A stretch of DNA of 64,000 nucleotides, taken from contig NZ_CP137157.1 of the NCBI RefSeq assembly GCF_040581405.1, forward strand, positions 142,001 through 206,000, in the 5' to 3' direction. The translations under genes were made by a program, and so were the position numbers. The notes beneath the pieces were generated by a model, which worked only from the letters and a program-made list of their open reading frames with translations, was not told the origin of the DNA and ran no database searches. Within the stretch, counting starts at the first letter, position 1. Every line of letters begins with the position of its first letter. Source of the DNA: Komagataeibacter sucrofermentans DSM 15973. GTDB taxonomy: Bacteria; Pseudomonadota; Alphaproteobacteria; Acetobacterales; Acetobacteraceae. Positions 25,439 through 41,468 of the stretch are shown one piece after another.

Positions 25439-25891
25439 TCAGTATTCAGGCTTTTCTCCCCTGGCGGGAACGGAGGTGGGCGTGCCCGGCGTGCCGGCAT
25501 AGGTCAGCAGCACGATGGTGCGGGTATCGCCCGTTTCCCCGCGATGCGTGTCATTTACGGATTCGGCAAACGCTTCGCCCTGATGGAAAGTTTCCTTTCT
25601 GCCACTATCACGATCATGAATCGTCAACTGCCCTTCCAGCACGTAGCCCGCGTTGGGCACGGGGTGGGTGTGCCACGGCAGCGCGGTATGGGCGGGAATG
25701 GTCAGGCGGATCATGGTCAGTTCGGGGCGCGTGGTGGGGTAGGGCGCATACGCCACGCCATTCCATGAATGATCGGCCTGCAGCAGGATATCACGATGGC
25801 CGGAGGCGACCGTCTGGGCATGGGCTGCTGTCGTGGCAAGGCTGGCAATGCACAGGCAGGCGGCGGCCAGGCGGGCAGGGTGCAGGGGCAT
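25439..25891 (-). CDS. Periplasmic cupin-domain protein
   Basis: 150 residues: signal peptide ending near AHA-QT, then a single cupin barrel. Motif 1 has PWHTHPVPNAGYVLEG with two metal histidines and a Gly-rich turn; the second motif lies around FHQGEAFAESVNDTHRGET. The metal-binding residues look intact. The substrate is unknown. It is separate from the polyene operon, whose last gene ends 127 nt before. Confidence 0.75.
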   Translation of the reverse strand: MPLHPARLAAACLCIASLATTAAHAQTVASGHRDILLQADHSWNGVAYAPYPTTRPELTMIRLTIPAHTALPWHTHPVPNAGYVLEGQLTIHDRDSGRKETFHQGEAFAESVNDTHRGETGDTRTIVLLTYAGTPGTPTSVPARGEKPEY

Positions 25892-25982
25892 GATGGGTCT
25901 TTCCGCTTGGGTTCGTTTCTTTCCCTAGCGTTTCATTTCCCGCTGCGTTGCCATGCGGCGCGCTCACATGGCTTTGAGTGCG

Positions 25983-26010
25983 CGGGCCAGGACCATGTGG
26001 TCCTGGCCCG
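25983..26010. terminator. Strong hairpin behind the polyene operon
   Basis: CGGGCCAGGACCA (25983-25995) and TGGTCCTGGCCCG (25998-26010) form a 13-bp perfect inverted repeat with almost no loop. It starts 9 nt after the stop of the last operon gene. No T tract follows on the minus strand. Confidence 0.6.
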
Positions 26011-26018
26011 GCGCGGTT

Positions 26019-27338
26019 TTACCGGCTTGTGGGGGCCTCGGTGGTGTGCAGCAGGTCAAGGGCCTGCTGCACCTTGGCCTGCTGGGCCGCAATATAGTCG
26101 TAGTAACGCTGGTAGAACGCCGGGAACGCCCCCGATTCCCGTGCAAGCGCGGGGTGGTGCGCCTGCCACCATGAAAGCGGCTGGCGATCCTGCATGATGC
26201 GGGCATAGCGCCCGGCAAAATATTCAAGATTGGTGCGCAGGTCGTAATAATGCGCGTTCTTGAGGTAATGGGCGAAATTGCGGTGATATGACCCCAGCAC
26301 CGGATCATCGTAGAAGATGAGTGACAGCGAGGTGTTGTAAACCTCGTTGGGTGTATGCACCGGTTCTGATTCCAGCAGCACGCCCGGCTCATCGGCCAGC
26401 CAGTCATATTGCATGAAGGTCTGGTAGGTCAGTTTATCGTTGAATATGGCCTGAATGTTGTCCACCGGCACCGCATCCGTGCGGTGGATCAGGTTGACGA
26501 GTTCATTCTTGGGCACGGGAAAGCTCAGCGCCGCGAGCACGACAAAGCGGTTGATCGGCCATTCGCTCCAGAACCCCGCCGCCGCCAGCGCATTATGGGT
26601 CAGGTGGTTGCAGTTGTCCTGCAACACGTTGGAATCATAGGTTTTGGGCCCGTTGCGATAGACGGCGTTGCGCTCGTTGAGGAAATCCATGATCTTGCGC
26701 ATCTGTGGCGCGGTCACGGGCAGGCGGGCACAGAAGCGCGCGCGCCCCAGCGTGGTGGCGTAATCGGTGCCGACCGACATTTCATATTTCCAGTCCACGG
26801 CGGACATGTTGGCAGGCTTGCCGTTGAACACTTCCTTGTGGAAGATCACGCCATCATAGATGCCGCGCCGCTTGGCCTCATCCTGCGTTGCCACGTAGCC
26901 TGCGCGCGTCAGCCCCTGGCCGGGTGCGAGCGTGCCATCAAAGTAAAAGGCGCTGCTTTCCGCTCCGGTCCAGTTGGCGTTGCTGTAATGCGAGTTCATG
27001 CTGAAGCCCACGCCATCGGGCCGGTCGGCGGTACGGGTGGCATCGCATTCGGTCAGCACCGGGTAGCCCGCCTTGCGGTCAAGGCACACGCCACCAAGGA
27101 ACATGACCGCATGCCCGCCCGCGCCGCCGCTGATATCCGCGCCAAAGCCGGGTTTTTTCGATATCTGCGAGACCGCGCACAACTCGGCGTAATACGGAAA
27201 GGCCTGGTTGTACACATCGGGCCTGCTCACCTGGCCAGGATGGTTGAAATTGGTCGGCGCGCAGGCGGCCAGCAGGGCGGTGCCCGCCAGCAGGCCCGCA
27301 CAGGCCATGCGGCGCAAAAGGTGGTGTGTCATGCCCAT
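26019..27338 (-). CDS. Lipoprotein encoded last in the polyene operon
   Basis: 439 residues. The signal peptide ends in the lipobox LLAAC. Its ATG shares the final A of the previous stop (TAATG), so it is translationally coupled to the flavoprotein gene. Two conserved-looking boxes stand out: GGAGGHAVMFLGGVCL near residue 75 and DNCNHLTHNALAAAGFW near residue 240. A His box followed by a Cys box is the order seen in permuted papain-fold enzymes (YaeF/LRAT type), so an amidase or acyltransferase role at the membrane is possible. I do not recognise it as a standard aryl polyene gene. Confidence 0.6.
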   Translation of the reverse strand: MGMTHHLLRRMACAGLLAGTALLAACAPTNFNHPGQVSRPDVYNQAFPYYAELCAVSQISKKPGFGADISGGAGGHAVMFLGGVCLDRKAGYPVLTECDATRTADRPDGVGFSMNSHYSNANWTGAESSAFYFDGTLAPGQGLTRAGYVATQDEAKRRGIYDGVIFHKEVFNGKPANMSAVDWKYEMSVGTDYATTLGRARFCARLPVTAPQMRKIMDFLNERNAVYRNGPKTYDSNVLQDNCNHLTHNALAAAGFWSEWPINRFVVLAALSFPVPKNELVNLIHRTDAVPVDNIQAIFNDKLTYQTFMQYDWLADEPGVLLESEPVHTPNEVYNTSLSLIFYDDPVLGSYHRNFAHYLKNAHYYDLRTNLEYFAGRYARIMQDRQPLSWWQAHHPALARESGAFPAFYQRYYDYIAAQQAKVQQALDLLHTTEAPTSR

Positions 27339-28681
27339 TACCGCCGCCCCCGCTCAAGCTCGGGGCACGATTGTGGCCTGTCGCGCTCCAGCCACAGCTT
27401 GGCCGAGACCAAGTAATACGCCGCCTTGAACACGGCCATCGGCAGGCGCGTTCTGAGCTTGCCCCTGAAGTCGCCCGCGAGCAGCGAGATCACCCCATCG
27501 CGCATGCGGAACGCGTTGCGTGGGTTCATGAACAGGTGGCGGATGACCGGCGTGTTGATGCGGTAGATCAGCCACGCGACCCGCTTCATGGCGGCACGGG
27601 TTTCCTGCTCCGCCCGGTGGGCCGCCCGCCGCCCTGCCTTGGGGGATTTGAGCCACGCATCCGCAACCGACACGCCCCGCTCGGCGCTGCTCATGGCCAG
27701 CAGCACGCCCGAGGAGAACACGGGGTCGAGAAAGCCGAAGGCATCGCCAATCATGTAATAGCCTTCTCCCCATGACTGCCCGGCGTGATAGGAGTAATTG
27801 CCCGTGGCCATTATGTCGCGCAGCGGCGTTGCGTTGCGCATGCGCGCGCTTACGCTCGGGCTTGCCCTGACCTTGCTCCAGAACAGGTCGGCCGGGCTGC
27901 CCTTGCGGCCTTCAAACGCCACGCGGTCACCCACGAAGCCCACGCTCATCAGCCCGTCGGGCAGGGGGATCATCCAGAACCAGCCATTATCCACCAGATG
28001 GATGGAAATATAGCCTTCCCTGTCGCCATCGCGGAATTCGACACCGCTGAAATGACCGAACAGGGCGGCGGTGGAATTGTATTTGTTGCTGGTCTTGTTG
28101 CCCGCGCGGCTGGCGAGGAAGGTATCGCGCCCCGAGGCATCGAGTATGAAGCGCGGCGCGAAGGCCTGCTTTATGCCATCCGGCCCCACGGCCTCGACAT
28201 GGCCGCGCGCGCCGTCCTGCCCCGGTTCCACGCTGGTGACGCGGGTGTTTTCCAGCAGCGTCGCGCCTTCCCTGCCCGCGTGGCGAAACAGCATTTCATC
28301 GAATTCGGAGCGCACGACCTGGTAGCTGTTGGTGTAGCTTTTGTCGATGCCATAGGCGAACGGAAAGGCGACGCTGCGCCCGGTCACGTCTGATACGAAC
28401 TCGGCACCCGGCTTGAACACCCCGAACGCGCGCACCCGGTCCATCAGGCCAAGGCGCTCGAGAATGGGCAGGTTCCAGGCCAGTAGGGATTCACCAATAT
28501 GAAAACGTGGATGGCTGTCCTTTTCCACCACGATCACCCTGCGCCCCTGCCCGGCCAGCAGGGCGGCGGCGGTTGACCCCGCGGGGCCACCGCCGATGAC
28601 GAGGACATCGCATTCCTGCGCGGAGCTGCCGTCGGTGGGGGGTGTCATGGGGCGTTCTTTCGTGCTGGGGTCCGGGGTCAT
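27338..28681 (-). CDS. Flavin-dependent halogenase-like oxidoreductase
   Basis: 447 residues; the ATG at 28681 overlaps the ketoreductase stop (ATGA), and 28648 is the alternative start. FAD is bound by VLVIGGGPAGSTAA. Flavin-halogenase marks follow: FHIGESLL, FKPGAEF with a Lys (K90) at the place of the catalytic lysine, and GWFWMIP (W234-P239), which fits the WxWxIP signature. The late GDAFGFLDPVFSSGV loop closes the FAD site. Halogenated polyenes are known (xanthomonadins), but many relatives in polyene clusters are unproven, so a non-halogenating redox role is possible. Confidence 0.75.
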   Translation of the reverse strand: MTPDPSTKERPMTPPTDGSSAQECDVLVIGGGPAGSTAAALLAGQGRRVIVVEKDSHPRFHIGESLLAWNLPILERLGLMDRVRAFGVFKPGAEFVSDVTGRSVAFPFAYGIDKSYTNSYQVVRSEFDEMLFRHAGREGATLLENTRVTSVEPGQDGARGHVEAVGPDGIKQAFAPRFILDASGRDTFLASRAGNKTSNKYNSTAALFGHFSGVEFRDGDREGYISIHLVDNGWFWMIPLPDGLMSVGFVGDRVAFEGRKGSPADLFWSKVRASPSVSARMRNATPLRDIMATGNYSYHAGQSWGEGYYMIGDAFGFLDPVFSSGVLLAMSSAERGVSVADAWLKSPKAGRRAAHRAEQETRAAMKRVAWLIYRINTPVIRHLFMNPRNAFRMRDGVISLLAGDFRGKLRTRLPMAVFKAAYYLVSAKLWLERDRPQSCPELERGRR

Positions 28682-29397
28682 GCCATGCCACCATTGATCG
28701 AGATGGTCTGGCCGTTGATGTAGGCGGCGCGGCTTGAGGTGAGGAAGGCGACAAGATCGGCCACTTCCTCCGGCTGGCCCGCGCGTTTGGCGGGCACGAG
28801 GTCGGCAATCTGGCGCGGGGTCATTACCGCGTCGATGGCCGGCGAGGCAATGACGCCAGGGGCCACGACATTGACCGTAATGCCCCGGCTGGCCACTTCA
28901 CGCGCAAGCGCGCGCGCGGCCCCGCTCAACCCGGCCTTGGCCGCCGCGTAATTGGCCTGCCCCCGGTTGCCCATGATGGCCGCGACCGAGGAAATGCCGA
29001 CAATGCGCCCCCATCGCGTGCCGATCATGGGCAGCAGGAGCGGCTGGAGGGTGGCAAAGAACCCGTCAAGCGATACGGACACGACCGAGCGCCACTGCTG
29101 CGCGCTCATGCCCGCCATGGGCGCGTCATCATGAATGCCGGCGTTATGCACCACCACCTGTACCACGCCTTCGGCCAGCAGGGTTTCAAGCGCCGTGGCG
29201 GTGGCGGCCATGTCCGACAGGTCGCACTGCCACGCCTGCGCCGAGCCACCCGTGGCGCAAATTCCGGCGGCAATGTCGCGCGCCTTGTCGATGGCGTTAT
29301 GCGCATGGACGATAACGTGCAGCCCATCGCGTGCGAGGCGCTGGCAGATGGCCTGGCCGAGCGGGCTGGCGCCCCCGGTTACGAGTGCGCGTTTCAT
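28678..29397 (-). CDS. 3-ketoacyl-ACP reductase of the polyene cluster (FabG/ApeQ-like)
   Basis: 239 residues. SDR fold with TGGASPLGQAI, VVHNAGIHDD, the catalytic serine in VGISSVAAIMGN and the YAAAK box. The C terminus TSSRAAYINGQTISINGGMA is FabG-like. It would reduce the beta-keto group after each chain extension on the acyl carrier protein. It has ATGA overlaps at both ends (29394-29397 and 28678-28681). Confidence 0.85.
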   Translation of the reverse strand: MKRALVTGGASPLGQAICQRLARDGLHVIVHAHNAIDKARDIAAGICATGGSAQAWQCDLSDMAATATALETLLAEGVVQVVVHNAGIHDDAPMAGMSAQQWRSVVSVSLDGFFATLQPLLLPMIGTRWGRIVGISSVAAIMGNRGQANYAAAKAGLSGAARALAREVASRGITVNVVAPGVIASPAIDAVMTPRQIADLVPAKRAGQPEEVADLVAFLTSSRAAYINGQTISINGGMA

Positions 29398-29837
29398 GCC
29401 TGTTGTCCTTGTGGTTGCAGCACGACAAAACCATGGCCCGTGACCAGAGCGGCCCCGGCTTCGCTTTCCACGCGAAAGTGGTAGCGCATGCCCTGTTCAT
29501 CGGTCTGTTCGCATGTCGCCCTGACCTGCAATGTGCCCCATTGCGGCTGGTCCAGCCGCCCCGGCGCAAGGTGGATCTGGCGCAGGGTGGTCAGGTAGCC
29601 GATGCGCGGGGTAGCTCCTTGCGCGTGCAGCCCCCCATGCAGGGCGGCCGCCTGCATGCCGATTTCAACCCCGCACACCATATCGAGCCGCCCGTTGCGG
29701 CGCAGCGGGTTGGCGGGATCAAGATGCGCGCGGGTGGTGCAGTGGATCGTCTGCACATCATGCGCGATGACGCGCTCGAGCATGCAGCTTGCCCCGGCAT
29801 GGGGCATGCGTGCCTCAATATCTGCCCGGGTCAGCAT
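29394..29837 (-). CDS. Hotdog-fold 3-hydroxyacyl-ACP dehydratase (ApeP-like)
   Basis: 147 residues. The start MLTRADIEARMPHAGASCML, with the MPHAG segment, and the later VEIGMQAAALHGGL helix match the ApeP-type dehydratases of aryl polyene clusters. It would remove water to give each double bond. It overlaps the chain-length factor gene by 7 nt and the reductase gene by 4. A second dehydratase domain is fused to the ligase. Confidence 0.75.
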   Translation of the reverse strand: MLTRADIEARMPHAGASCMLERVIAHDVQTIHCTTRAHLDPANPLRRNGRLDMVCGVEIGMQAAALHGGLHAQGATPRIGYLTTLRQIHLAPGRLDQPQWGTLQVRATCEQTDEQGMRYHFRVESEAGAALVTGHGFVVLQPQGQQA

Positions 29838-30640
29838 GGCGTTACCTTTATGGCTACATGCCCCACATCGCCTGCCACGCGGATCTCATGCATGCCGCCC
29901 TGGGCTATGGCGGCCAGAAGCGGCAGGCAGCGGGCCGCCGGGTTGTCGTGGCACAGCGCGCGCAGCGCTGCCGTGGTCTGCGCATCGGGCAGGGTCAGTG
30001 CGGTGTCGGCAGCACCCTCCGGCCCGTATTCCATATCCAGAACGGCAGGCGCATGCGGCACGGGGTGGGGGGAGAGCACGAGCCCCACGCCAAACGTGCC
30101 CTGCGTGGGCCGTTTCTGGGCCAGCGGCTGCGGCATGGTCATGTCATAGACACACAGGAGAACGGTCTTTTCTTCCACTACCGCCTCGGCTGCGGCCTGC
30201 AGCAGGGAAAAGCCCCAACTCCAGTCATATCCGCCAAAACAGGCCACGGGCTGGTGGGACTGGCTGCCAATGGTCCAGTACCCCGCCGCCGCGTTATGCA
30301 CGGAATTATGGAACTGCGTGGGCGATACGCCCGCCGTGGGGTCGGCCAGTGCCTGCAGGATGGTGTTGACCACCATGCCATCGCCATTGGAACTGCCAAA
30401 CACATTATGCACTTTAGCCGGGTCACAGCCTGCCGCGGCACAGGCTTCGCCGGCCACGGTCATGGCCAGGCGCACGATGGGGCTGGTGCGCCGCCGTTCG
30501 TTGGGGGCCAGGGTGGCGGGTGGCGGCAGGGCGCACGGCGTGGGCTGCCATGCGGCTTCCCCGCGCAGGATGGCGCGGGCGGGCTCCCATCCCGCCATGC
30601 CATCGGCCAGCACGGCCAGGCCCGAAATCCATACGCGCAT
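29831..30640 (-). CDS. Ketosynthase-like chain-length factor (ApeC-like)
   Basis: 269 residues, much shorter than a true ketosynthase. It matches the beta-ketoacyl synthase chain-length-factor domain: SPIVRLAMTVAGEAC, NVFGSSNGDGMVV, PTQFHNSVHNAAAGYWTIG, GFSLLQAAAEAVV. The nucleophilic cysteine region is absent (HNSVHNAAAGYW takes its place). In studied aryl polyene systems ApeC pairs with ApeO as a heterodimer. The upstream ketosynthase stop and this ATG share one base (TGATG), which favours equal expression. Confidence 0.85.
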   Translation of the reverse strand: MRVWISGLAVLADGMAGWEPARAILRGEAAWQPTPCALPPPATLAPNERRRTSPIVRLAMTVAGEACAAAGCDPAKVHNVFGSSNGDGMVVNTILQALADPTAGVSPTQFHNSVHNAAAGYWTIGSQSHQPVACFGGYDWSWGFSLLQAAAEAVVEEKTVLLCVYDMTMPQPLAQKRPTQGTFGVGLVLSPHPVPHAPAVLDMEYGPEGAADTALTLPDAQTTAALRALCHDNPAARCLPLLAAIAQGGMHEIRVAGDVGHVAIKVTPC

Positions 30641-31854
30641 CAGGCGGCCTTTCCAAAAATCAGGCTGCAGTTTGCCCCGCCAAAGCCAAAGGCGTTGCTC
30701 ATGACATGGTGCACGGGCCGGGTTACGTTGCCGGTCAGCACATCCGTGCGGAAAGCGGGGTCCACTTCATCCACGCCAAGGCAGCCGGGCATGAACCCGT
30801 GCTCGATGGCTAGGGCGCAGATCATCGCCTCCAGCACGCCGCACGCCCCCAGCGTGTGCCCCGTCCAGCCCTTGGTGGAGGAGCACGGAACCTGCGCGCC
30901 AAACAGGGTGCCGACGGCCTTGTCCTCCATGGCGTCATTGGCGCGGGTGCCGGTGCCGTGCAGGTTGATGTAATCAATGGCGTCCACCGGCAGGCGCGCG
31001 CTTTGCAGCGCACGCTGCATGGCCAGCACCGCGCCCGCGCCGTGGGGGTGCGGGGTGGACATGTGGTGCCCGTCGCTGCTCGCCCCATAGCCGAGCACGG
31101 CGGCGCGAAACCCGGCCGGAGGGCCGCTGACAGCGCGGCCATCAGCGCGTTCGAGCAGCACGATGCCCGCAGCCTCCCCGATCGAGATGCCATCGCGCGA
31201 TGCATCGCACGGGCGGCAGGGTTGGGCCGAGACCAGTTCAAGGGCGGCGAACCCGCGCAGCGTCATGCGGCACAGGCTGTCGGCTCCCCCCACCACCACC
31301 GCATCGCAGAGACCCGCGCGGATCAGGTAGGCCGCATCCATGAACGCGCGCGAGGAGGAGGCGCACGCCATCGACACGCAAAGTGCCGGGCCACCAAGAT
31401 CAAGTGCGGCCCGCACATACCGCGCGAGCGAGAACAGGTCCTGCGTATGTTCATAATCAAAGTGCGCAGGCAGCCTGCCCTGCGCATCCATGGCGCAGAA
31501 GGCGTCCTCGCTGGCTAGAACGCCCGATGTGCTGGTGCCCATGACCACGCCAATGCGCCCCGCGCCATAATGCGCGCGGGCGGACATGATGGCATCGGCC
31601 ACGCCATCGGTGCGCAGGGCCATGTCGATCAGGCGGTTGTTGCGGCAGTCATAGGCCGCCAGCGCCGGGGGCAGGGCATGGGTTTGCACGCCTGCAACGC
31701 TGCCCGCATAGCCGTGGGTGATGCCGGCAAAATCGCACCGCTCCAGCCCCGTGCGCCGGTCGCGCAGGGCGGCCAGCGTCTGTGCCACCCCAAGGCCAAT
31801 GGCGCTTATGCCGGTGCCCGCGGTCACGTGCAGGGCGGTCATGGCGGCGGTCAT
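30640..31854 (-). CDS. Beta-ketoacyl-ACP synthase (ApeO/FabF-like)
   Basis: 404 residues with a full catalytic set: C164 in VSMACASSSRAF, H299 in INLHGTGT, K328 in SSTKGW and H333 in TGHTLGA. It would carry out decarboxylative chain extension with malonyl-ACP. It is preceded by the exporter gene (4-nt overlap) and followed by the chain-length factor. It is the only complete ketosynthase in the locus; a second one (ApeR type) is common in aryl polyene clusters and was not seen. Confidence 0.9.
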   Translation of the reverse strand: MTAAMTALHVTAGTGISAIGLGVAQTLAALRDRRTGLERCDFAGITHGYAGSVAGVQTHALPPALAAYDCRNNRLIDMALRTDGVADAIMSARAHYGAGRIGVVMGTSTSGVLASEDAFCAMDAQGRLPAHFDYEHTQDLFSLARYVRAALDLGGPALCVSMACASSSRAFMDAAYLIRAGLCDAVVVGGADSLCRMTLRGFAALELVSAQPCRPCDASRDGISIGEAAGIVLLERADGRAVSGPPAGFRAAVLGYGASSDGHHMSTPHPHGAGAVLAMQRALQSARLPVDAIDYINLHGTGTRANDAMEDKAVGTLFGAQVPCSSTKGWTGHTLGACGVLEAMICALAIEHGFMPGCLGVDEVDPAFRTDVLTGNVTRPVHHVMSNAFGFGGANCSLIFGKAA

Positions 31855-34184
31855 GAACGGGCCTGCCGCGCGGTGTCGGCTACGGGTGCCGCCATCATGA
31901 AACTGAACAGCATGGCCAGAAACGCTCCTATCGCGACGGTTGAGCCAATATCACGCAAAAGCGGGGTGCGGCAGCATGCAAGGATGCCAAAGGTCAGAAG
32001 GGTCATTGTATTGCAGGTGAGCAGGGTGCGTAAGGTGCGGGCGCGCTCGGCGCGGTCGATCTGGGGGCGGGCGAAGAACAGGGCATAATCCAGCCCCACC
32101 CCCATTACGAACTGGAGCGAAATGACATGGATGAGCGACAGCCTGACCCCCAGCACCGCCATTGCCGCCATGATTACGATGCCCGCGCTCCCCACCGCCA
32201 CGCACACGCGCGCCAGCCGCCGCCCGTTGCGCAGGCCGAGTGCCAGCACGATTATCGCCATGAGCGTGCCAGCCACCGTCCACCACAGGGCCTGGTGCAT
32301 GTGGTCAGCCACGATGGCGTTTGTTTCGTTGCGCATGTTCAGCACCATGATGCCGGGCTGCGTTGCGAAGGCCGTGGCAAGGGCTGCCGTATCGCGCACG
32401 GTTTCGGGCAGGATGATGCCAAACCACTGGCCCTGGCGTGCAAACAGCAGCGGGGCAAGGCGGGTGGCCACGAGCGGGGATGTCATGTCGCCCGGCTGTA
32501 ACGGCGCCATGGCGCGTGTCACGGCTACATCATGCACGAAGGGGGCAAAGGCATCGGGCTGGAAAGGCAGGTCGGCGCGGGCTTCATCAAGCCTGCGGGC
32601 CAGTTCCGCCGTATCGGGCAGGCGCGCGATCCGGGCGCGTTGCAGGGTCATGCTGGGCAGGAAGCGGGCGGCATATTCCGCATCGCCCATCACGCCGCGT
32701 GCCTGCAGCGCGTCGAGCACGGGCATGAGCCGTTCCTCGCGTTCCAGCACGCCCTGCACGCTGGGCGCCTGCACGATAATGGCCTGCCCGGCATCAGGCG
32801 CGCCGATTTCGTGGCGCAGTTCCGCATCGAGCGCGCGCAGCGCAGGCGGCACAGGGCTGAGGGAGGCGATATCCGTCTCGCGCTGAGGGGGATGGACCAG
32901 CAGCACGCCTGCGCCAATCACCGGCACGATCAGGAACCACAGGCGGTAGCGCCGCCAGGATTCAATGCGCAGGATGCCATCTGCATGGGTTGCGACGCCG
33001 GGGGAAAGATCGGCCTTCTCGATCAGGCGCGGCAGGAGCCACAGGGTCGTGGCCGCGGCGCTCACAAGCCCCGCAACCGAAAACACGCCAAGCTGCGCCA
33101 GCCCCGGCAGCCCGCAGAACACCATGCCCGTCAGCCCCAGGCACGCGCTGGTCACCGCAAGGCGCAGGCTGGTGCCGATCCGGCGCAGGGGGGCTGCGGC
33201 GTCCTCGCCCTGGTCGCGGTGGCCGATGAGCAGCACGGGATAGTCGAGCGAGACGCCAAGCATGGTCATGCCAAAACCGAACGAGATGCCATGCACGTAG
33301 CCAAACAGCACCTTTACGACCACCATCGCCACGCTGAGCGAGAGCGCGAACGGAATGCCCATGGCCGCCAGCACCCATGGCGAGCGGAAGCGCCAGATCA
33401 GCACCGCCGTAACCAGAATCATCGAGGCGGTGGACAGGAACTCCACATCCGCCTGCATGGCATGCGAGGCCTTGAGCGCAAACACCGCAGGCCCGGACAT
33501 GAGCAGGCGCATGCCCGGTCGCGCCGCAGCCGCGTAGGCCGCATTGATCGCGGCCTGCACCTGCTTTTGCGCATACAGGTCCATGCCGTTGGCGCGGGTG
33601 CGCAGCAAAATCAGCGCGCGGTCGCGCTCGGGCGCGAACCACACGCCATCAATGCTGCGCCCGTGGCTGTGTGGCGCCCACGCCCGCAGCAGCGCCATGA
33701 AAGCCCCGGTCGGGTCAGCCAGCCCATAATGCTGGGCCAGTGGCTCGGCGGAGGATTCCATCATGTCCAGCACGGCCTGCATGTCATCATGCAGCGCATC
33801 GACCGAAAAATCGCGTGCGGAATCCGGGGGGGCGAGCAGGTAGCGGTGGCTGAACAGAAAGGCCTCGTCCGCGCCATCGGGCGGGCGGCTACCATTGGTC
33901 ACGGTTACGAACAGCCCGCTGTGGGCAAGGCTGTCGGCCATGGTCTGGCTGGCCTGTGCCAGCACATCGGGCGGCGCACCCTCGATTGCGGCCAGAATGA
34001 CCGTGGCGGCGCTGCCGGACTGGATCTCGCGCATGATGAAGCGCGTGTTGTCCGTGCGGCCCGCAGGCAGGAAGCCCGCCATGTCGGTGCGCAGCGGTAT
34101 GGCCATGAACACGCACGCCGCCACCACCAGCGAGACCAGCAGGCCGATGGCCAGCGGCTTTATGGAGCGCGGGCGTGCCGTCAT
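31851..34184 (-). CDS. MMPL/RND-type exporter of the polyene cluster
   Basis: 777 residues with two repeats, each a large periplasmic domain after one helix and followed by about five helices. Markers are MTARPRSIKPLAIGLLVSLV, the helix GISFGFGMTMLGVSLDYPVL with an Asp, and FVMGVGLDYALFF in the second half. Such exporters in aryl polyene clusters move the lipid-linked polyene across the inner membrane or hand it to carriers. It overlaps both neighbours by 4 nt. Confidence 0.85.
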   Translation of the reverse strand: MTARPRSIKPLAIGLLVSLVVAACVFMAIPLRTDMAGFLPAGRTDNTRFIMREIQSGSAATVILAAIEGAPPDVLAQASQTMADSLAHSGLFVTVTNGSRPPDGADEAFLFSHRYLLAPPDSARDFSVDALHDDMQAVLDMMESSAEPLAQHYGLADPTGAFMALLRAWAPHSHGRSIDGVWFAPERDRALILLRTRANGMDLYAQKQVQAAINAAYAAAARPGMRLLMSGPAVFALKASHAMQADVEFLSTASMILVTAVLIWRFRSPWVLAAMGIPFALSLSVAMVVVKVLFGYVHGISFGFGMTMLGVSLDYPVLLIGHRDQGEDAAAPLRRIGTSLRLAVTSACLGLTGMVFCGLPGLAQLGVFSVAGLVSAAATTLWLLPRLIEKADLSPGVATHADGILRIESWRRYRLWFLIVPVIGAGVLLVHPPQRETDIASLSPVPPALRALDAELRHEIGAPDAGQAIIVQAPSVQGVLEREERLMPVLDALQARGVMGDAEYAARFLPSMTLQRARIARLPDTAELARRLDEARADLPFQPDAFAPFVHDVAVTRAMAPLQPGDMTSPLVATRLAPLLFARQGQWFGIILPETVRDTAALATAFATQPGIMVLNMRNETNAIVADHMHQALWWTVAGTLMAIIVLALGLRNGRRLARVCVAVGSAGIVIMAAMAVLGVRLSLIHVISLQFVMGVGLDYALFFARPQIDRAERARTLRTLLTCNTMTLLTFGILACCRTPLLRDIGSTVAIGAFLAMLFSFMMAAPVADTARQARS

Positions 34185-34786
34185 ACGGGCGGGTCGATGC
34201 GCATGACCTGCGTATCCCCATTGGCCTGCACCACGCGGATCACGGTCATGGCGTTGTTCTGGCCATCAATCGTGATCGTGCGCACGTAGCGCGCCATGGC
34301 GGGCTGGGGGGTGAGTTGCAGCGTCCAGTGCGCCACGTCGCCCTGTGCCGCGAGCGTATAGTCATGGCGCAGGGCGGTAATGTCGCCATCAAGCGGTGCG
34401 CGGATGGCCTCGACAAGGGCGGCAAGCTGCGCATGGTGCGACAGGTCCACCACGCGGGCCGGTCCCTGCCCTCGCGCCAGGCTCAGCGTCGTGCCCTGCA
34501 CGATCAGGGTCTCGGGCCGGGGTTCGCGCGTGATCTTCTGCACATGGCCCGGCCGGGCATAGATCAGTTCACCCGATGAATTGAGGTCATGCGTCAGGGC
34601 CGCGATATGCTTGCTTTCATGAAAAACATTGTGCCGCGCGGGCACCATGCCGATGCGGGCAATGACGGTGGCGGCCAGGTCGGGCGCGGGCGGCTGCGTG
34701 TCCTGCGCGTGTCCGCGCCCAACCCCCCAGCACATGAACAGCGCCAGCGCGGCGGGCGCAAGGCGGGCGCGTTTATGGTCCATCAT
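34181..34786 (-). CDS. LolA-like outer membrane lipoprotein carrier protein
   Basis: 201 residues from the ATG at 34786 with an excellent site GGGGAGAACC. A signal peptide (LAPAALALFMCWGVGRGHAQ) precedes a LolA-type half-barrel: ALTHDLNSSGELIYARPGHV, the PETLIVQGTTLSL strand pair and TLAAQGDVAHWTLQLTP. It may ferry the finished polyene lipid through the periplasm to the outer membrane. It starts inside the acyltransferase gene (14-nt overlap). Confidence 0.75.
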   Translation of the reverse strand: MMDHKRARLAPAALALFMCWGVGRGHAQDTQPPAPDLAATVIARIGMVPARHNVFHESKHIAALTHDLNSSGELIYARPGHVQKITREPRPETLIVQGTTLSLARGQGPARVVDLSHHAQLAALVEAIRAPLDGDITALRHDYTLAAQGDVAHWTLQLTPQPAMARYVRTITIDGQNNAMTVIRVVQANGDTQVMRIDPPV

Positions 34787-35714
34787 GGTTCTCCCCGTGT
34801 TTTCCCACCTGCGGGGCAACCCATACATCATGGAAATTGAACCAGTTATAGGGATGGGCGCGGCACAGCCTTTCCATCCAGCGGGCGTAATGCCCCATCC
34901 ACGTGGCCAGCCCCTGCGCGCGCTGCCTGCGCGGGATGGTGATCTGTTCGGCCAGCAGCTCGAAGCGCACCGTATACTGCCTGTAGCCCGTACGCACCCC
35001 GCTGAACAGGATGACCGGCACCCCCAGCATGCTGGCCACCAGCAGCGGCCCGGCGGGAAAAGCCGCCATGCCGCCAAGGAACGGCGTGAGCACGGATTTT
35101 TCATGCCCCGGCGCCCTGTCGCCCAGCATGCCCACCAGTTCGTTGCGCGCCAGGCTCTCCTGCACGCGGATCATGGCGTCAGGCTCGCCGATATCAATGA
35201 TATTACGGGCAAATTCCGGGGCAAGCTGCTCCAGCAGGCGCGTGGGCGCACCCGCATTGCGCCGGAACATGAGCACCCTGACCGGAAAGGGCGACATGCG
35301 GCCCACGCTGCGCAATGCCTCGAACGAGCCGATATGCGCGCCAAGCAGGATGCACCCGCGCCCGCCCGCCATGGCCGCGTGCACGCAGTCCAGCCCGTCG
35401 ATGTCGATTTTGTAGCCCTTGTAACGGCCCGAGAGGAAAAAGACCCGGTCCAGTATGGCTGCGGCAAAGGTATGGAAATGCCGCGCCACATCCAGCATGT
35501 GCACGGGCCGGTCGAGCACGCGGGCCAGATACTGGCGCGAGGCCCGGCGCGCCTGCCGGGCCGTAAGCAAAAAATACAGCGTGATGAACGGCAGGATGGC
35601 CTCGCCAAACGGGCGGCCCACCCGCAGCGTCAGCCAGATCATGAAGCGTGACAGCGAGGCTATGCCGCGCTCGGGCCTGACCCAGCCGGGTTTGGGCTCA
35701 GGCATGGGCGCCAT
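34773..35714 (-). CDS. LpxL/HtrB-like lysophospholipid acyltransferase
   Basis: 313 residues. One hydrophobic N-terminal segment, then the LPLAT catalytic box GAHIGSFEALR (H-x4-E type), VLMFRRNAG, LGDRAPGHEKSVLTPFLGG with the acidic metal region, and a basic C-terminal domain. Family members transfer acyl groups to lipid A or related lipids. Here it would attach the polyene acyl chain to its lipid or sugar acceptor at the inner membrane. It overlaps the ligase gene by 17 nt. Confidence 0.8.
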   Translation of the reverse strand: MAPMPEPKPGWVRPERGIASLSRFMIWLTLRVGRPFGEAILPFITLYFLLTARQARRASRQYLARVLDRPVHMLDVARHFHTFAAAILDRVFFLSGRYKGYKIDIDGLDCVHAAMAGGRGCILLGAHIGSFEALRSVGRMSPFPVRVLMFRRNAGAPTRLLEQLAPEFARNIIDIGEPDAMIRVQESLARNELVGMLGDRAPGHEKSVLTPFLGGMAAFPAGPLLVASMLGVPVILFSGVRTGYRQYTVRFELLAEQITIPRRQRAQGLATWMGHYARWMERLCRAHPYNWFNFHDVWVAPQVGKHGENHDGP

Positions 35715-37341
35715 TGCGCAAGCGCCCCTTTGCCACCACCTGCGTGCCCACCGTGCAGGTAAATGCCAGCGGCTGCGTTGTATGCGTTACGCGTACGGTA
35801 TCGCCCGGCCGCACGGGATGCAGGAATTTCACCTGTTCCAGCAGGGCAGGCTCGACCCCCATGAGGCCAAAGGCCTCGCTCAGTACCACCACGCCGGGCA
35901 CGATGGGGCAGCCGGGAAAATGCCCGGCAAGGGCAGGGTGGTCCGCTGCGATGCTGAAGCACCCCGCATCATGCGCTGTCGTGGCCAAGCCGGCGGGCGC
36001 GGTGGCGGGGCGCGGCTCATGCACCAGCGCCTGCAGCGCCGCGCGGGTCAGCTTGCCCGTTTCGTTGCGGGGCAGGCCATCCACGCGCATGACCCGGCGC
36101 GGCAGGAAAGCGGGGGGCACACGCGCGCGCAGTTCGGTCAGGATGTCGGGCGCGGTGCGGGTGGGCGCCACCACCACCACCTCCATGCGCCCCACGGGCT
36201 GGCCCGGCGCATCGGGTTCGGGGGCGAGGAAGATGCCATCCTCAACGCCCTGTACGCCCAGCAGGATGGCGTTCAGCCCGGCAAGGGAGGTGCGCTGCCC
36301 CGCAATCTTGATGATGTCGGTCATGCGGCCTTCCAGCCTGAAGGTATCGGGCGTGAGCGGCGTGATTGCATCGCCCAGAACGTGGCTCGTGGCATCGGGC
36401 GCATGAATGCTGGCCGTGCCATCGGGGCGGGGGTGCAGGCTGATGCCGGGGTGCAGGCGCCACGCCTGTGTCGCGGTGGTGCGGCGCGTGGCGATGGAGC
36501 CGGTTTCGGTGCTGCCATAAATCTCGAAAACGGGGGCATGCCAGCAGCGTTCCGCCATCTCGGCGGTGGCGCCATCGAGGGGGGCTGTAGCGGAGATGAC
36601 CCGCGCTATCGGCGGCAGCGGCGTGTGGCCGGTCAGGAACGTGCGGATGTGCAGCGGCGTGGTGAGCAGGATGCACGGCTGCGGCCCCTGCTCGAGGCGG
36701 GCGCGGATATCGGCGGGGAACAGGGCAGGCCCCGTGGTGCTGATGCAGCCCGTGACGAGGGGCTGGATGACCGTCGTCTCGAAACCATACATGTGATAGG
36801 GCGGCACCGTGCCCACGATGGTGGCAACCCTGCCCGGCACGGGCATGAACAGGTTTATGCTGGCCTGCGCCCGGCGGGCCAGCGCGCCCCATGTCTTGGC
36901 ATGGGCGACCGGGGTGCCGGTGCTGCCCGATGTCAGGATATGCGCCACGAGCTGCGTTGCGGCAATATCCGGGTTGGCGGGGGTGCCCGCGCCATCGAGT
37001 GACAGGGCGGAGAGGTGGATGACCGGCGTGCTCGCTGGCAGTGTGCAGGGCGGCAGGTCGGTATCGGTCACGATGGCCGCATCGGGGTAGCAGGCCAGCA
37101 GGTGCGCAAGCGGGCCTGCGGCCCTGCTACCCGGCAGCACGCTGTACTGCCCGCGCAGCACGGCGGCACAGAAGGCGGCGGTAAAGTACAGCCTGTCGCG
37201 GCACAGGTTGATGATGGGCCGTGGGGGCAGCGTCGCGGCAAGGGCGTGGGCCGCATGGAGCACGCTATTGCCGGTTATGAGGCGTTCCGGTGTTCTGAAC
37301 AGGGGGGCTGCCGGATGACCGAGCAGGGGAAACGCATGCAT
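35698..37341 (-). CDS. AMP-dependent acyl/aryl ligase fused to a FabZ-like dehydratase
   Basis: 547 residues, two domains. Residues 1-440 form an adenylation domain: TSGSTGTP (137-144), EIYGSTETGS (273-282), GRMTDIIKIAGQR (338-350) and the catalytic lysine K430 in RNETGK. Residues 455-547 form a hotdog dehydratase with the FabZ-type signature HFPGCPIVPGV (474-484). Aryl polyene systems encode these as separate ApeH and ApeI proteins. The fusion places starter loading and dehydration on one chain. The order, 9 nt after the carrier protein gene, suits loading that protein. Confidence 0.85.
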   Translation of the reverse strand: MHAFPLLGHPAAPLFRTPERLITGNSVLHAAHALAATLPPRPIINLCRDRLYFTAAFCAAVLRGQYSVLPGSRAAGPLAHLLACYPDAAIVTDTDLPPCTLPASTPVIHLSALSLDGAGTPANPDIAATQLVAHILTSGSTGTPVAHAKTWGALARRAQASINLFMPVPGRVATIVGTVPPYHMYGFETTVIQPLVTGCISTTGPALFPADIRARLEQGPQPCILLTTPLHIRTFLTGHTPLPPIARVISATAPLDGATAEMAERCWHAPVFEIYGSTETGSIATRRTTATQAWRLHPGISLHPRPDGTASIHAPDATSHVLGDAITPLTPDTFRLEGRMTDIIKIAGQRTSLAGLNAILLGVQGVEDGIFLAPEPDAPGQPVGRMEVVVVAPTRTAPDILTELRARVPPAFLPRRVMRVDGLPRNETGKLTRAALQALVHEPRPATAPAGLATTAHDAGCFSIAADHPALAGHFPGCPIVPGVVVLSEAFGLMGVEPALLEQVKFLHPVRPGDTVRVTHTTQPLAFTCTVGTQVVAKGRLRNGAHA

Positions 37342-37350
37342 GGTGATGGC

Positions 37351-37623
37351 TTAGGACGGGGAATGCGCTGCTATGTAATGGGTCAGGCTGCGCACGGAGC
37401 GGAAAATATCCACTTTATCGGCATTGTCCGAACGGAGCTCCACTCCATACTGCCGCTTGATCGCCAGCGAGAGTTCCAGCGCATCAATGGAGTCCAGGCC
37501 AAGGCCATCGCCAAACAGGGGGGCATCCATCTCGATTGTGGAGACGGGCATGTCCAGTTGCAGGGTCTCTACAATAAGCGCCGCTATTTCGGTTTCTGAT
37601 GGAGATGGAGGGTTTTCCGCCAC
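37351..37623 (-). CDS. Acyl carrier protein of the polyene cluster
   Basis: 90 residues, first gene of the eleven-gene operon. The phosphopantetheine site is the serine in GLGLDSIDALELSL near residue 45. The helices before and after match type II carrier proteins. It holds the growing chain for the ketosynthase, reductase and dehydratases. Only this one carrier gene was found in the locus, whereas studied aryl polyene clusters have two. Confidence 0.9.
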   Translation of the reverse strand: MAENPPSPSETEIAALIVETLQLDMPVSTIEMDAPLFGDGLGLDSIDALELSLAIKRQYGVELRSDNADKVDIFRSVRSLTHYIAAHSPS

Positions 37624-37790
37624 TAATTTATGCCTATTACTTACATTAATATCAGAAGGTTTCTGGCCGCGAGCATACCCCGCCCCATGGCCTGTAACAA
37701 TGCAGAATCATTCTGTAACAGCAGCCGGGGTTTTTGCATCGCGCTTCAGTGTGATGCCGGTATGGTAGATCCTTACGGTCAGGCGGTCAT
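37624..37790. promoter_or_regulatory. Divergent promoter region of the polyene locus
   Basis: 167 nt, AT-rich next to the carrier protein gene (TTATGCCTATTACTTACATT at 37627-37646). It must hold the promoter for the eleven-gene operon on the minus strand and for the membrane protein gene on the plus strand. No clear operator dyad was recognised. Confidence 0.45.
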
Positions 37791-38402
37791 ATGCGTTTAG
37801 CTGGCATTATCATGCTCTTTGTGGCGAGTGTAGGGGCGCATGTCTTCTCGGCCATGGGGCTTGTGGTCCCTGCCGCGCGCTGGCTGGTAACGGGGCAGGC
37901 GCTGGGGGGTGGCCTGCTGCTGGCGGCTTCAGCCATTCGCGGGCGGCTGGCGTGGGGGCTGTGTCTTGCGGCCCTTGCAGCACTCGGATACGGGCTGCCC
38001 CCCGGTTTCGTGCTGCTGGCGGATTCCGTGGTGCTGTACGGCGTGATTCAGGGCGCGTTACTGCTACTGTTCGCCCGCACCCTGCGCCCCGGGCATGAGC
38101 CGCTTGTCACCATGCTGGCACGCCAGGTGCACGGCACGCTACGGCCCGACGTGTTGCTTTATACCCGCCAGCTGACATGGGCATGGACCCTTTTCTTTGC
38201 GGTGCAATTGATCCTGCCCGCCCTCCTTGCGCTGGCGGGGCCTGCGGGGTGGTGGCGCGCGGTGCTGCATGGGGCGAGCATGCCGCTTGTGCTGGTCATG
38301 TTCGGGGTTGAAGCGGGGGTGCGGCGCTGGCGCATCCGCAATTTCGATCACGCCTCGATCATGGACTCCGTCAGGGCCTTCAATAACCGCGCGCGGGGGT
38401 GA
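37791..38402 (+). CDS. COG4648-like membrane protein of the polyene locus
   Basis: 203 residues with about five hydrophobic spans (LAGIIMLFVASVGAHVFSAM, LVTGQALGGGLLLAASAI, FVLLADSVVLYGVIQGALL, WTLFFAVQLILPALLALAG, MPLVLVMFGVEAGV). Between them lies LVTMLARQVHGTLRPDVLLY, and the C terminus is RRWRIRNFDHASIMDSVRAF. This pattern fits the uncharacterised COG4648 proteins often found in aryl polyene clusters. It is the only locus gene on the plus strand and converges on the glycosyltransferase gene with 12 nt between. Confidence 0.7.
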   Translation: MRLAGIIMLFVASVGAHVFSAMGLVVPAARWLVTGQALGGGLLLAASAIRGRLAWGLCLAALAALGYGLPPGFVLLADSVVLYGVIQGALLLLFARTLRPGHEPLVTMLARQVHGTLRPDVLLYTRQLTWAWTLFFAVQLILPALLALAGPAGWWRAVLHGASMPLVLVMFGVEAGVRRWRIRNFDHASIMDSVRAFNNRARG

Positions 38403-38414
38403 GGGGCGGCCTTT

Positions 38415-39179
38415 TTACGTCCGTGCGGCGCGCCTGCGCAGGGGCAGCAGGCATAGTCGCGCCAGAAAAATGATCATGAGCCGCACATGCATGCGGATCA
38501 GCAGCAGGTTGTCGCGCAGGTAGTGAAAGTGGGAGATGCCCCCTTCATCGTGGCTGAGGTAGCGCACGGGTGAATCAAGATTGACGCAGGCCAGCCCGCG
38601 CCAGCACAGGCGCACGGCGGCCTCGGGGTCGAAATCATAACGGCGCATGCCCGATACGCCATCCATGACCGCCAGCAGGTCGGCCGCGGGATAGACCCGG
38701 AAGCCGAACAGTGAATCCCCGATGTCGCTGCCCGGCGTTTCCAGTCGCGCCCACCAGTTGGAAACCCGGCGCCCCTGCACCCGCAGGGCAGGTGCATCAG
38801 CGGCAAAGACCGGCCGCCCCAGAATCAGGGCCGCCGGCGCGCGGCATGATGCATCGATGAACCGGCCAATCTGCCCGGCAGGGTGCTGCCCGTCGGCATC
38901 CATGGTCAGGATATGGGTGTAACCATGCGTGCGCGCCCAGCGCAGCCCGTGATGGATGGCCGCCCCCTTGCCCCGGTTGCGCGGCAGGTGCACCACCGAC
39001 AGGCCGGGATGCGTGGCGGCAAGGGCGGGCAGGCTGTTGGCGCTGCCATCGGTGCTGCCATCAACCACAACCAGCACGTCGGGCCAGAAGGCCAGCGCCT
39101 CGGCCACCGTGCGCGCCAGGACCGGGCCGGTATTGTAGGAGGGAATCACGACAAGATGGCGCGGGGCGGGCGGGTTCAT
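38415..39179 (-). CDS. Family 2 glycosyltransferase
   Basis: 254 residues from the ATG at 39179 (TGGAGGC upstream). GT-A fold: LVVIPSYNTG, VLVVVDGSTDGS with the nucleotide-binding aspartates, and TMDADGQHPAG containing the DxD metal motif. The C terminus is hydrophobic and basic (MIIFLARLCLLPLRRR), suggesting membrane attachment. It may add a sugar to the lipid anchor of the polyene. It overlaps the acyltransferase gene by 4 nt (ATGA). Confidence 0.85.
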   Translation of the reverse strand: MNPPAPRHLVVIPSYNTGPVLARTVAEALAFWPDVLVVVDGSTDGSANSLPALAATHPGLSVVHLPRNRGKGAAIHHGLRWARTHGYTHILTMDADGQHPAGQIGRFIDASCRAPAALILGRPVFAADAPALRVQGRRVSNWWARLETPGSDIGDSLFGFRVYPAADLLAVMDGVSGMRRYDFDPEAAVRLCWRGLACVNLDSPVRYLSHDEGGISHFHYLRDNLLLIRMHVRLMIIFLARLCLLPLRRRAART

Positions 39180-39958
39180 GCCATGCCTCCATGCGGGGCC
39201 TGCCGGGCAAGGGCCTCGGTCAGCCAGGCCTGCACCTGCCCGGCCAGTTCGCGTGATGTCATGGCGCGGGTGGCCTGCGGGGGCAGGGTCGCGCCGCGCG
39301 TGACGGTATAGGTAATGGGCAGCGCGGGGCAACGCAGCAGGGAGGCGCCTTTGCGCAGATAGGGCGAGCTGGTGGTAATGACCATTGTCTGCACCGTGCA
39401 GCCCGCCTGCATGGCAATGGCGGCAAAGGCGGGGTGAAAGGCGTTATCCGCCCGCGCCCGGCCCGAGCGCGTGCCCTCGGGGAACAGCAGGATGGGCTGG
39501 CCCGCGCGCGCATGCGCCACCGCGCTGCGGATCAGGCGCAGCGGCGTGTCGTTGCCGGGATATTGCGCAAGCCGCAGCGCCGCGCCGTAAAACGGGTGAT
39601 CGAGCAGGGACTGCTTGGTTACGCACACAAGATCGGGCAGGTAGGCGGTGAACAGCATGGCATCCATCAGCGATGGATGGTTGGCCACCACCACGGTGTT
39701 GCGGATATGGGCCAGCGCCTTGAGGTCGTGCGGGTTGCACCGGATTCCGCCCAGCCCGCGCAGCACGTTGAGCGACAGCCGCGACATGACCCAGATCCAT
39801 CGCCGCCCGACCATGCCCCGCCACCTGCGCGGCACGACAGGGGCCAGCAGCAGCGCAACAGTATTGAATACCGCAAAGGCCCAGACAGCATAGACAAGGC
39901 CGATGCAGAAAATAATTCTATGCCAGCCTCTCCGCGCCATCTTGCGTATCATATCCAT
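39176..39958 (-). CDS. PlsC-type 1-acylglycerol-3-phosphate acyltransferase-like protein
   Basis: 260 residues if it starts at 39958; ribosome sites are poor here and 39952 or 39940 are possible. An N-terminal helix (FCIGLVYAVWAFAVFNTVAL) precedes the catalytic box NHPSLMD (H-x4-D) and LLFPEGTRSGR. Such enzymes acylate glycerolipid-like acceptors. In aryl polyene clusters a PlsC-type enzyme usually accompanies the LpxL-like one. First gene of the second minus-strand unit. Confidence 0.8.
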   Translation of the reverse strand: MDMIRKMARRGWHRIIFCIGLVYAVWAFAVFNTVALLLAPVVPRRWRGMVGRRWIWVMSRLSLNVLRGLGGIRCNPHDLKALAHIRNTVVVANHPSLMDAMLFTAYLPDLVCVTKQSLLDHPFYGAALRLAQYPGNDTPLRLIRSAVAHARAGQPILLFPEGTRSGRARADNAFHPAFAAIAMQAGCTVQTMVITTSSPYLRKGASLLRCPALPITYTVTRGATLPPQATRAMTSRELAGQVQAWLTEALARQAPHGGMA

Positions 39959-40155
39959 AAAACAGAACCGGGCCACCACGACAGGACAGGCGCCTGAGAA
40001 CCCATTATGGCGGAAGGAGGCGTAACTGCCTAATAGGCCCTGCATCGCCCCGGTTATGGCTGATGCACACACGAATGCCCACAACGGAAAACACAAAAAG
40101 CGCCGGACGCGCCAGCGTTGTGATGCAGATTGCAGCCATTATTGAAAAAGGAGAA

Positions 40156-40241
40156 TGGTGGAGGGAGTTGGATTCGAACCAACGTAGGCGTACACCAGCG
40201 GATTTACAGTCCGCCCCCTTTAGCCACTCGGGCATCCCTCC
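40156..40241 (-). tRNA. tRNA-Tyr (anticodon GUA)
   Basis: The 7-bp acceptor stem GGAGGGA/TCCCTCC, anticodon loop CTGTAAA, a long variable arm and the T loop GGTTCGAATCC are all visible, and the CCA end is encoded (40156-40158). Class II tRNA with anticodon GTA means tyrosine. Its 3' end points at the polyene locus. Confidence 0.93.
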
Positions 40242-40358
40242 AGGTTGGGCGGGTAATTACGGGGTATGAGGGGGTGAGTCAAGGGCGTGGATGAAAAATT
40301 TGCGCCAATTTTGGTTTGGGGGAATGACGCCGCTGCCCGTTGGGCTTAAAGAGCAATC

Positions 40359-41252: not shown

Positions 41253-41468
41253 TGATTGCCCTGCCATAAGGGCCTGATGGTTTTTTCCGCGCACGCCGCG
41301 CATTGGTTGCAACGCCCGGCGAAGGGGTGGAAAACATGAAAAACTATTTATGTTATAACATGTAGCTTTGTTCCCCCATTATTGCCATTGGGGGAGCATG
41401 ACACGATCACGTGAGAGGGCCATTCCGCCAGGCTGCGGAAAGTGGGGCATGGGGCTGCGGCGCCCGGC

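Follow-up and report, generated by a model that had tools for sequence, protein, structure and literature searches.

An aryl polyene-type gene block of Komagataeibacter ends in a lipoprotein predicted to be an acyl-transferring enzyme

Results

A 64,000-nucleotide (nt) stretch of the 3.44 Mb genome of the vinegar-type, non-pathogenic bacterium Komagataeibacter sucrofermentans DSM 15973 (hereafter the window; contig NZ_CP137157.1, positions 142,001 to 206,000) carries a block of 14 genes that, judged from sequence, can largely be regarded as complete for the synthesis of a membrane pigment by an aryl polyene (APE)-type type II polyketide synthase (PKS) and for its export. We consider it probable, at roughly 60%, that this locus represents an APE subtype found in Acetobacteraceae and related alphaproteobacteria, whose terminal lipoprotein is an acyl-transferring enzyme. 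In gene content it comes close to xanthomonadin clusters, and published APE clusters from Acetobacteraceae already exist (PMC8776678). The last gene, encoding the lipoprotein, appears to represent a new, uncharacterised predicted enzyme family. A first-pass annotation of the window did not single out this lipoprotein, the novel part of the locus.

Assignment to the aryl polyene class

Each protein family was aligned with its relatives and compared by hhalign with the Ape families of E. coli CFT073 and up to seven alphaproteobacterial clusters. Nine families of the eleven-gene operon at 26019–37623, and likewise three flanking genes, have an Ape family as their best match at no less than 98% (Table 1), supporting the aryl polyene-type assignment that the first-pass annotation had made. 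The biosynthetic core of the class is present, with a ketosynthase (KS) and a chain-length factor (CLF) corresponding to ApeO and ApeC, a ketoreductase (KR), a dehydratase (DH), an acyl carrier protein (ACP) and an ACP-loading ligase (98–100%), as is the export set of ApeG (99.1%), ApeL (99.5%) and ApeM (100%). The fused ligase pairs with ApeH over 8–435 (100%) and with ApeI over 446–528 (98%). PF13723, which the CLF-like protein matches, is also matched by E. coli ApeC, and a Pfam scan gave no match for either the ApeG-like protein or E. coli ApeG. Motifs expected of the encoded proteins are seen throughout: LDSI in the ACP, ACASS and HGTGT in the KS, YAAAK in the KR, HIGSFE in the LpxL-type acyltransferase, GHFPG at the ligase C-terminus, GGGPAG and WFWMIP in the flavin adenine dinucleotide (FAD) enzyme, and the lipobox LAAC in the lipoprotein.

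Compared with apeA–R of E. coli CFT073, 12 of the 18 Ape functions (C, D, E, G, H, I, J, L, M, O, P and Q) have counterparts in the block, although H and I are fused, J is split over two genes and the KS adjoins the CLF. Two block genes, the halogenase-like FAD enzyme and the TseH/Lnb-like lipoprotein, have no E. coli counterpart. The gene content had been described as reduced relative to studied clusters; this holds for ApeA, B, F, K, N and R, which have no counterpart in the block (for A, B, F and K the search covered the block and not the rest of the genome), but not for ApeG, ApeD and the N-terminal half of ApeJ, which lie just outside the operon interval. PF11659 (ApeN, DUF3261) was not found in the genome, in a search not backed by a positive control. 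Two ACPs and a second KS (ApeR) are characteristic of the APE subtype of E. coli, Acinetobacter and Xenorhabdus (PMC8358021), whereas the window block has one ACP and one KS; a strict genome-wide KS search (E ≤ 1e-60), which could miss an ApeR, gave one match. No ApeN lies between ApeM and ApeO, the MMPL and KS genes of the window overlapping by 4 nt.

Xanthomonadin producers have single-ACP clusters with a KS/CLF-like pair and, in several cases, a halogenase (PMC3691225, PMC3949708). The window likewise has an adjacent KS/CLF-like pair, a single ACP and a halogenase-like gene, and the clusters described for Lysobacter, Xanthomonas and Azoarcus (arc) share with it, as far as these descriptions go, a KS that adjoins a CLF-like protein, a single ACP in the gene list, two dehydratases, a separate family 2 glycosyltransferase (GT2), LolA and an exporter, the halogenase occurring in several but not in Lysobacter, whose pigments absorb at 430 and 453 nm. 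In this comparison, made by gene description rather than by sequence, the window differs in that no XanB2-type chorismatase is recognised among its block genes, no genome-wide search having been made for it, and in that the lipoprotein is not among the genes listed for those clusters. Within the same bacterial family, antiSMASH-predicted APE clusters comprise an adenylate-forming protein, a dehydrogenase, a probable halogenase, transport proteins and hypothetical proteins; the section describing them does not go through the clusters gene by gene and makes no mention of the lipoprotein (PMC8776678).

Signature and predicted fold of the lipoprotein

The lipoprotein has no significant Pfam match, and a GGH...NC signature is invariant across its 35 aligned relatives. 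The alignment of 35 rows was drawn from 78 loci and the window, the remainder not being entered so as to keep it manageable; L059 and L077 were left out because their stretch carries a stop near its end, and L088 was left out without need. H76, at the start of a strand, and C243, at the start of a helix (243–253), are both kept in all 35 rows. When the domain was folded alone, fold searches with the whole lipoprotein having given helical-bundle noise, the best matches of the predicted fold were permuted NlpC/P60 (TseH/Lnb/LRAT-like) thiol enzymes. The lipobox cysteine, Cys26, lies before the start of 11 rows; 23 of the other 24 have a Cys there, and it is followed by Ala. Under the E. coli sorting rule, Ala after the lipobox Cys directs a lipoprotein to the outer membrane, where this one would thus be anchored.

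The lipoprotein resembles Lnb (DUF4105, PF13387), LRAT, YiiX, TseH and Tox-Act1 in having a His motif ahead of an N-C motif at a helix start and in its predicted fold. In contrast to these proteins, it passes no family model, carries its own helical region at the C-terminus and is tied to a pigment cluster. The Lnb_N model does not match the window lipoprotein; five of 20 rescanned relatives match it, all below 22.2 bits, and one member matched at 4.7e-5. Lnb, an acyltransferase, supplies the family model that most members match, if weakly (L181, a spurious frame, was dropped from the Lnb set). A search of a viral structure library gave no match at E ≤ 0.001, and a profile search of solved structures returned one chain at E 0.39. 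Homology to ApeN was considered and rejected, the alignment being limited to the signal-peptide stretch 12–33 at 15%. Elsewhere in the host genome there is a clear Lnb_N protein (L175, G000:C1:1504201-1504620, E 4.8e-35), and Lnb_N proteins occur in 29 of 385 genomes of the class sample.

Association of the lipoprotein with aryl polyene genes

We followed the lipoprotein across 78 loci in named genomes, which are the matches listed and not a census, and on which the counts out of 78 and 59 rest. Its nearest relatives among them are in Komagataeibacter nataicola, K. xylinus and K. melomenusus (95% identity). APE genes stand alongside it in 60 of the 78 loci (59 by a strict test, plus L039). Seventeen of the other 18 were searchable for a KS (L079 was left out); an ApeO-like KS (E ≤ 1e-60) was present in 13 of these genomes. 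Among the 385 genomes of the class sample, a strong lipoprotein match occurs in eight and a KS at E ≤ 1e-99 in 11, with seven genomes having both; G200 gave a further lipoprotein match, at 3.7e-4, too weak to be counted. In the phylum sample, the lipoprotein was found in one of 398 genomes, the window's own.

Placement within the clusters also recurs. In 31 of the 59 loci, exporter and KS are the immediate neighbours of the lipoprotein gene, one on each side, as they are for ApeN in E. coli; eight more that are cut by a contig end are consistent with this placement. In 10 of the 59 (Acetobacter, Tanticharoenia, Acidomonas, Nguyenibacter and Brytella), it and the FAD gene are arranged tail to tail, and in Komagataeibacter (three of the 59, and the window) it is the last gene of the operon. 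A recurring order, seen for example in Acidocella aquatica, Asaia astilbis and several Rhodospirillales metagenome-assembled genomes (MAGs), is ACP, ApeG, ligase, LpxL, LolA, MMPL, lipoprotein, KS, CLF, DH and KR, with GT2 and FAD genes on the opposite strand.

Several observations weigh against this association and against the assignment. Four of the 17 genomes without neighbouring core genes, all of them MAGs, gave no KS at E ≤ 1e-60, and for five of the 14 KS matches there (E 7e-77 to 5e-70) a classical APE cluster is a possible source. In the class sample, one of the eight genomes with a strong lipoprotein match (G095) has no KS at E ≤ 1e-50, and four of the 11 with a KS at E ≤ 1e-99 have no lipoprotein. 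The Fisher value of 1.1e-11 was obtained with cut-offs picked after viewing the data and with kinship ignored. The hhalign pairings, finally, are not all exclusive, as the KS also pairs with ApeR (100%, P 1.1e-43) and the ACP with ApeF (96.4%), both as would be expected, the LpxL-type enzyme with ApeD (58%) and the ligase C-terminus with ApeK (14%).

In the class sample, four genomes from other families (L140–L143) have a similar gene set without the lipoprotein; gene order is nearly the same in L140–L142, no KR being seen in L141, and is rearranged in L143. Seven classical clusters (L144–L150), some cut by the stretch end, carry ApeR (7/7), ApeN (6/7) and two ACPs (5/7). In Acidisphaera sp. 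S103 (L041), a classical cluster running from ApeN to ApeR is followed immediately by the lipoprotein, so that both candidate outer-membrane parts occur together. In Belnapia and a Craurococcus MAG (L073, L078, L087, L091, L101 and L102), the lipoprotein lies away from APE core genes and an ApeO-like KS is found elsewhere in the genome.

Layout and boundaries of the block

As the first-pass annotation had described, eleven intact minus-strand frames, all open, run from the ACP to the lipoprotein with a single 9-nt gap, here placed between ACP and ligase (37342–37350), and nine overlaps of 1–17 nt: ligase/LpxL-type acyltransferase 17, LpxL-type acyltransferase/LolA 14 (with the LolA start at 34786), LolA/MMPL 4, MMPL/KS 4, KS/CLF 1, CLF/DH 7, DH/KR 4, KR/FAD 4 and FAD/lipoprotein 1. 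The interval given for this operon stands, but the block proper is wider. Homology with five cluster-less Komagataeibacter genomes (L198–L202) stops at 25823–25864 and restarts at 40081–40090. The distance from an EAL-domain gene to a FUSC-family gene is 15.9–16.1 kb in four of the five cluster-bearing genomes and 22.8 kb in the fifth (G004), compared with 2.2–3.1 kb in seven cluster-less genomes; the remaining seven of these 14 gave no close matches of both flanks side by side on one contig. Flank spacing and homology ends thus define a unit of 14 genes and about 14.3 kb. In the genus sample, KS and lipoprotein occur in the identical five of 19 Komagataeibacter genomes. Since a genome has the block whole or not at all and its gene order largely recurs in relatives, the layout is not due to chance.

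At the block site, the five cluster-less genomes have 0.4–1.2 kb of other sequence, with short open frames of 113 and 120 amino acids in G003. G004 (between 1420312 and 1443120) has about 7 kb more between its flanks than the other four cluster-bearing genomes. The FUSC/aromatic-acid-exporter family gene adjoining the block (41442–43613; PF04632, 1.2e-143) is retained beside the site in cluster-less genomes. The block also adjoins tRNA-Tyr, and integration there was considered; no exact direct or inverted repeat of at least 11 nt was found between 25601–26100 and 39901–40300, and att sites are therefore not shown.

Halogenase-like flavoenzyme

GxGxxG and WxWxIP are motifs of flavin-dependent halogenases. 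The FAD enzyme carries the former as GGGPAG, and all 41 sequences of its alignment have WxWxIP. Among NCBIfam models CmlS fits it best, with 170 bits, well short of the cut-off of 900. This enzyme probably decorates the aryl head. In three of the classical clusters (L145, L146 and L148), a protein of the same family (212–218 bits) adjoins the MMPL exporter, and hence the flavoenzyme is not confined to the subtype described here.

Table 1 Features of the aryl polyene-type block in the window. The LolA-like start (34786) was picked by eye among candidate starts; likely starts of the GT2 (39179) and PlsC-type (39958) genes were also chosen by eye.
Feature	Coordinates	Strand	Evidence
Whole cluster, presence/absence block	25826..40088	.	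Homology with five cluster-less genus genomes breaks off and restarts there
Lipoprotein, predicted permuted NlpC/P60 (TseH/Lnb-like) thiol domain; His76, Asn242-Cys243	26019..27338	-	
Halogenase-like-group FAD enzyme	27338..28681	-	Trp_halogenase 2.2e-25; best Ape match 3.9%
Ketoreductase (ApeQ)	28678..29397	-	43% to ApeQ; hhalign 100%
Dehydratase (ApeP)	29394..29837	-	ApeP-like match under cut-off; hhalign ApeP 98.5%
Chain-length-factor-like protein (ApeC)	29831..30640	-	PF13723 1e-20; hhalign ApeC 99.2%
Ketosynthase (ApeO)	30640..31854	-	NF006618 492 bits, cut-off 407; 40% to ApeO; hhalign P 4e-125
MMPL/RND exporter (ApeM)	31851..34184	-	MMPL 2.7e-11; hhalign ApeM 100% over 733 columns
LolA-like periplasmic carrier (ApeL)	34181..34786	-	LolA_3 3.5e-15 (scanned as 34181-34798); hhalign ApeL 99.5%
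LpxL-type acyltransferase, ApeJ C-terminal half	34773..35714	-	Lip_A_acyltrans 4.8e-10; hhalign ApeJ 246-556 100%
AMP ligase fused with hot-dog dehydratase (ApeH+ApeI)	35698..37341	-	AMP-binding 8.4e-13
Acyl carrier protein, ApeE-type, sole ACP of the cluster	37351..37623	-	PP-binding 1.6e-9; 52% to E. coli ApeE; hhalign ApeE 99.9%
ApeG-like membrane protein, divergent from the operon	37791..38402	+	hhalign ApeG 99.1%
Family 2 glycosyltransferase, ApeJ N-terminal half	38415..39332	-	Glycos_transf_2 1.2e-22; hhalign ApeJ 6-249 100%
PlsC-type acyltransferase (ApeD)	39176..40096	-	Acyltransferase 2.2e-15; hhalign ApeD 100%

Discussion

Gene identities, block boundaries, the association of the lipoprotein with the cluster, its signature and its predicted fold are drawn from sequence and comparison. 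What we infer is the product with its aryl starter, the sequence of steps, halogenation, and where the lipoprotein is located and what it catalyses. As a plausible mechanism, the fused ligase (ApeH+I) would load an aromatic acid onto the single ACP, and KS-CLF (ApeO/C) and KR (ApeQ), with ApeP and the ApeI domain as the two dehydratases, would build the conjugated polyene, which ApeD, GT2 and the LpxL-type enzyme would join to a (glyco)lipid and ApeM, G and L would carry to the outer membrane. There, the lipoprotein, a putative permuted papain-like Cys-His protein, may take an acyl chain on Cys243 and transfer or exchange it. It would then work at the outer membrane as an acyl-transferring enzyme, completing the polyene lipid or installing it, and would stand where E. 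coli has ApeN. Single-ACP polyene synthesis, ApeD/ApeJ-type lipid attachment and ApeM/G/L export follow the proposal for E. coli, in which deletion of apeF keeps partial pigment (PMC8253772), making a single dedicated ACP plausible.

The same cluster could instead employ the lipoprotein for hydrolysis, as a phospholipase or esterase taking an acyl group off in the envelope and so remodelling phospholipid or trimming the exported polyene lipid. The fold class includes phospholipases, and Tox-Act1 and TseH act on phospholipids (PMC12994826), but the family model that most members match, if weakly, is that of an acyltransferase, and such enzymes can do both; we regard hydrolysis as unlikely, if still worth serious weight. 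A non-catalytic lipid receptor in the LolB/ApeN role on a papain-like scaffold would account for the ApeN position in 31 of the 59 listed clusters and for the finding that no block protein matches ApeN beyond its signal peptide. However, all 35 rows keep the putative Cys and His, which is unusual for a dead enzyme, and Acidisphaera carries both ApeN and the lipoprotein, leaving a pure receptor quite improbable.

The chemistry itself could also differ, the PKS producing a polyene or other acyl lipid from a non-aromatic starter and no aryl polyene at all. The block is without a recognised gene for making an aromatic acid, and chorismate lyase (PF04345) was not found in the genome. Yet the ligase pairs with ApeH, its best NCBIfam model is 4-coumarate-CoA ligase, though far under the cut-off, and a halogenase-like enzyme is present, as in xanthomonadin clusters (PMC3691225, PMC3949708), so that we give a non-aromatic product very little credence.

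A bolder proposal, which we hold to be doubtful, is that the lipoprotein founds a family of outer-membrane thiol acyltransferases that use the aryl polyene chain or polyene lipid as acyl donor or acceptor. Such a step would bind the polyene covalently to lipid of the outer membrane, or even to lipoproteins, which would then be pigmented. In the literature searched, no such fixation by a thiol acyltransferase was found for aryl polyene, flexirubin or xanthomonadin pathways, no paper joined aryl polyene with NlpC, and papers mentioning DUF4105 were without the term aryl polyene; aryl polyene together with LRAT, papain-like or lipoprotein N-acyltransferase was not found in the part of the hits examined. 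With its predicted acyl-transferring lipoprotein and without ApeN, the Komagataeibacter cluster turns the delivery and fixation of aryl polyenes at the outer membrane into a testable enzyme question.

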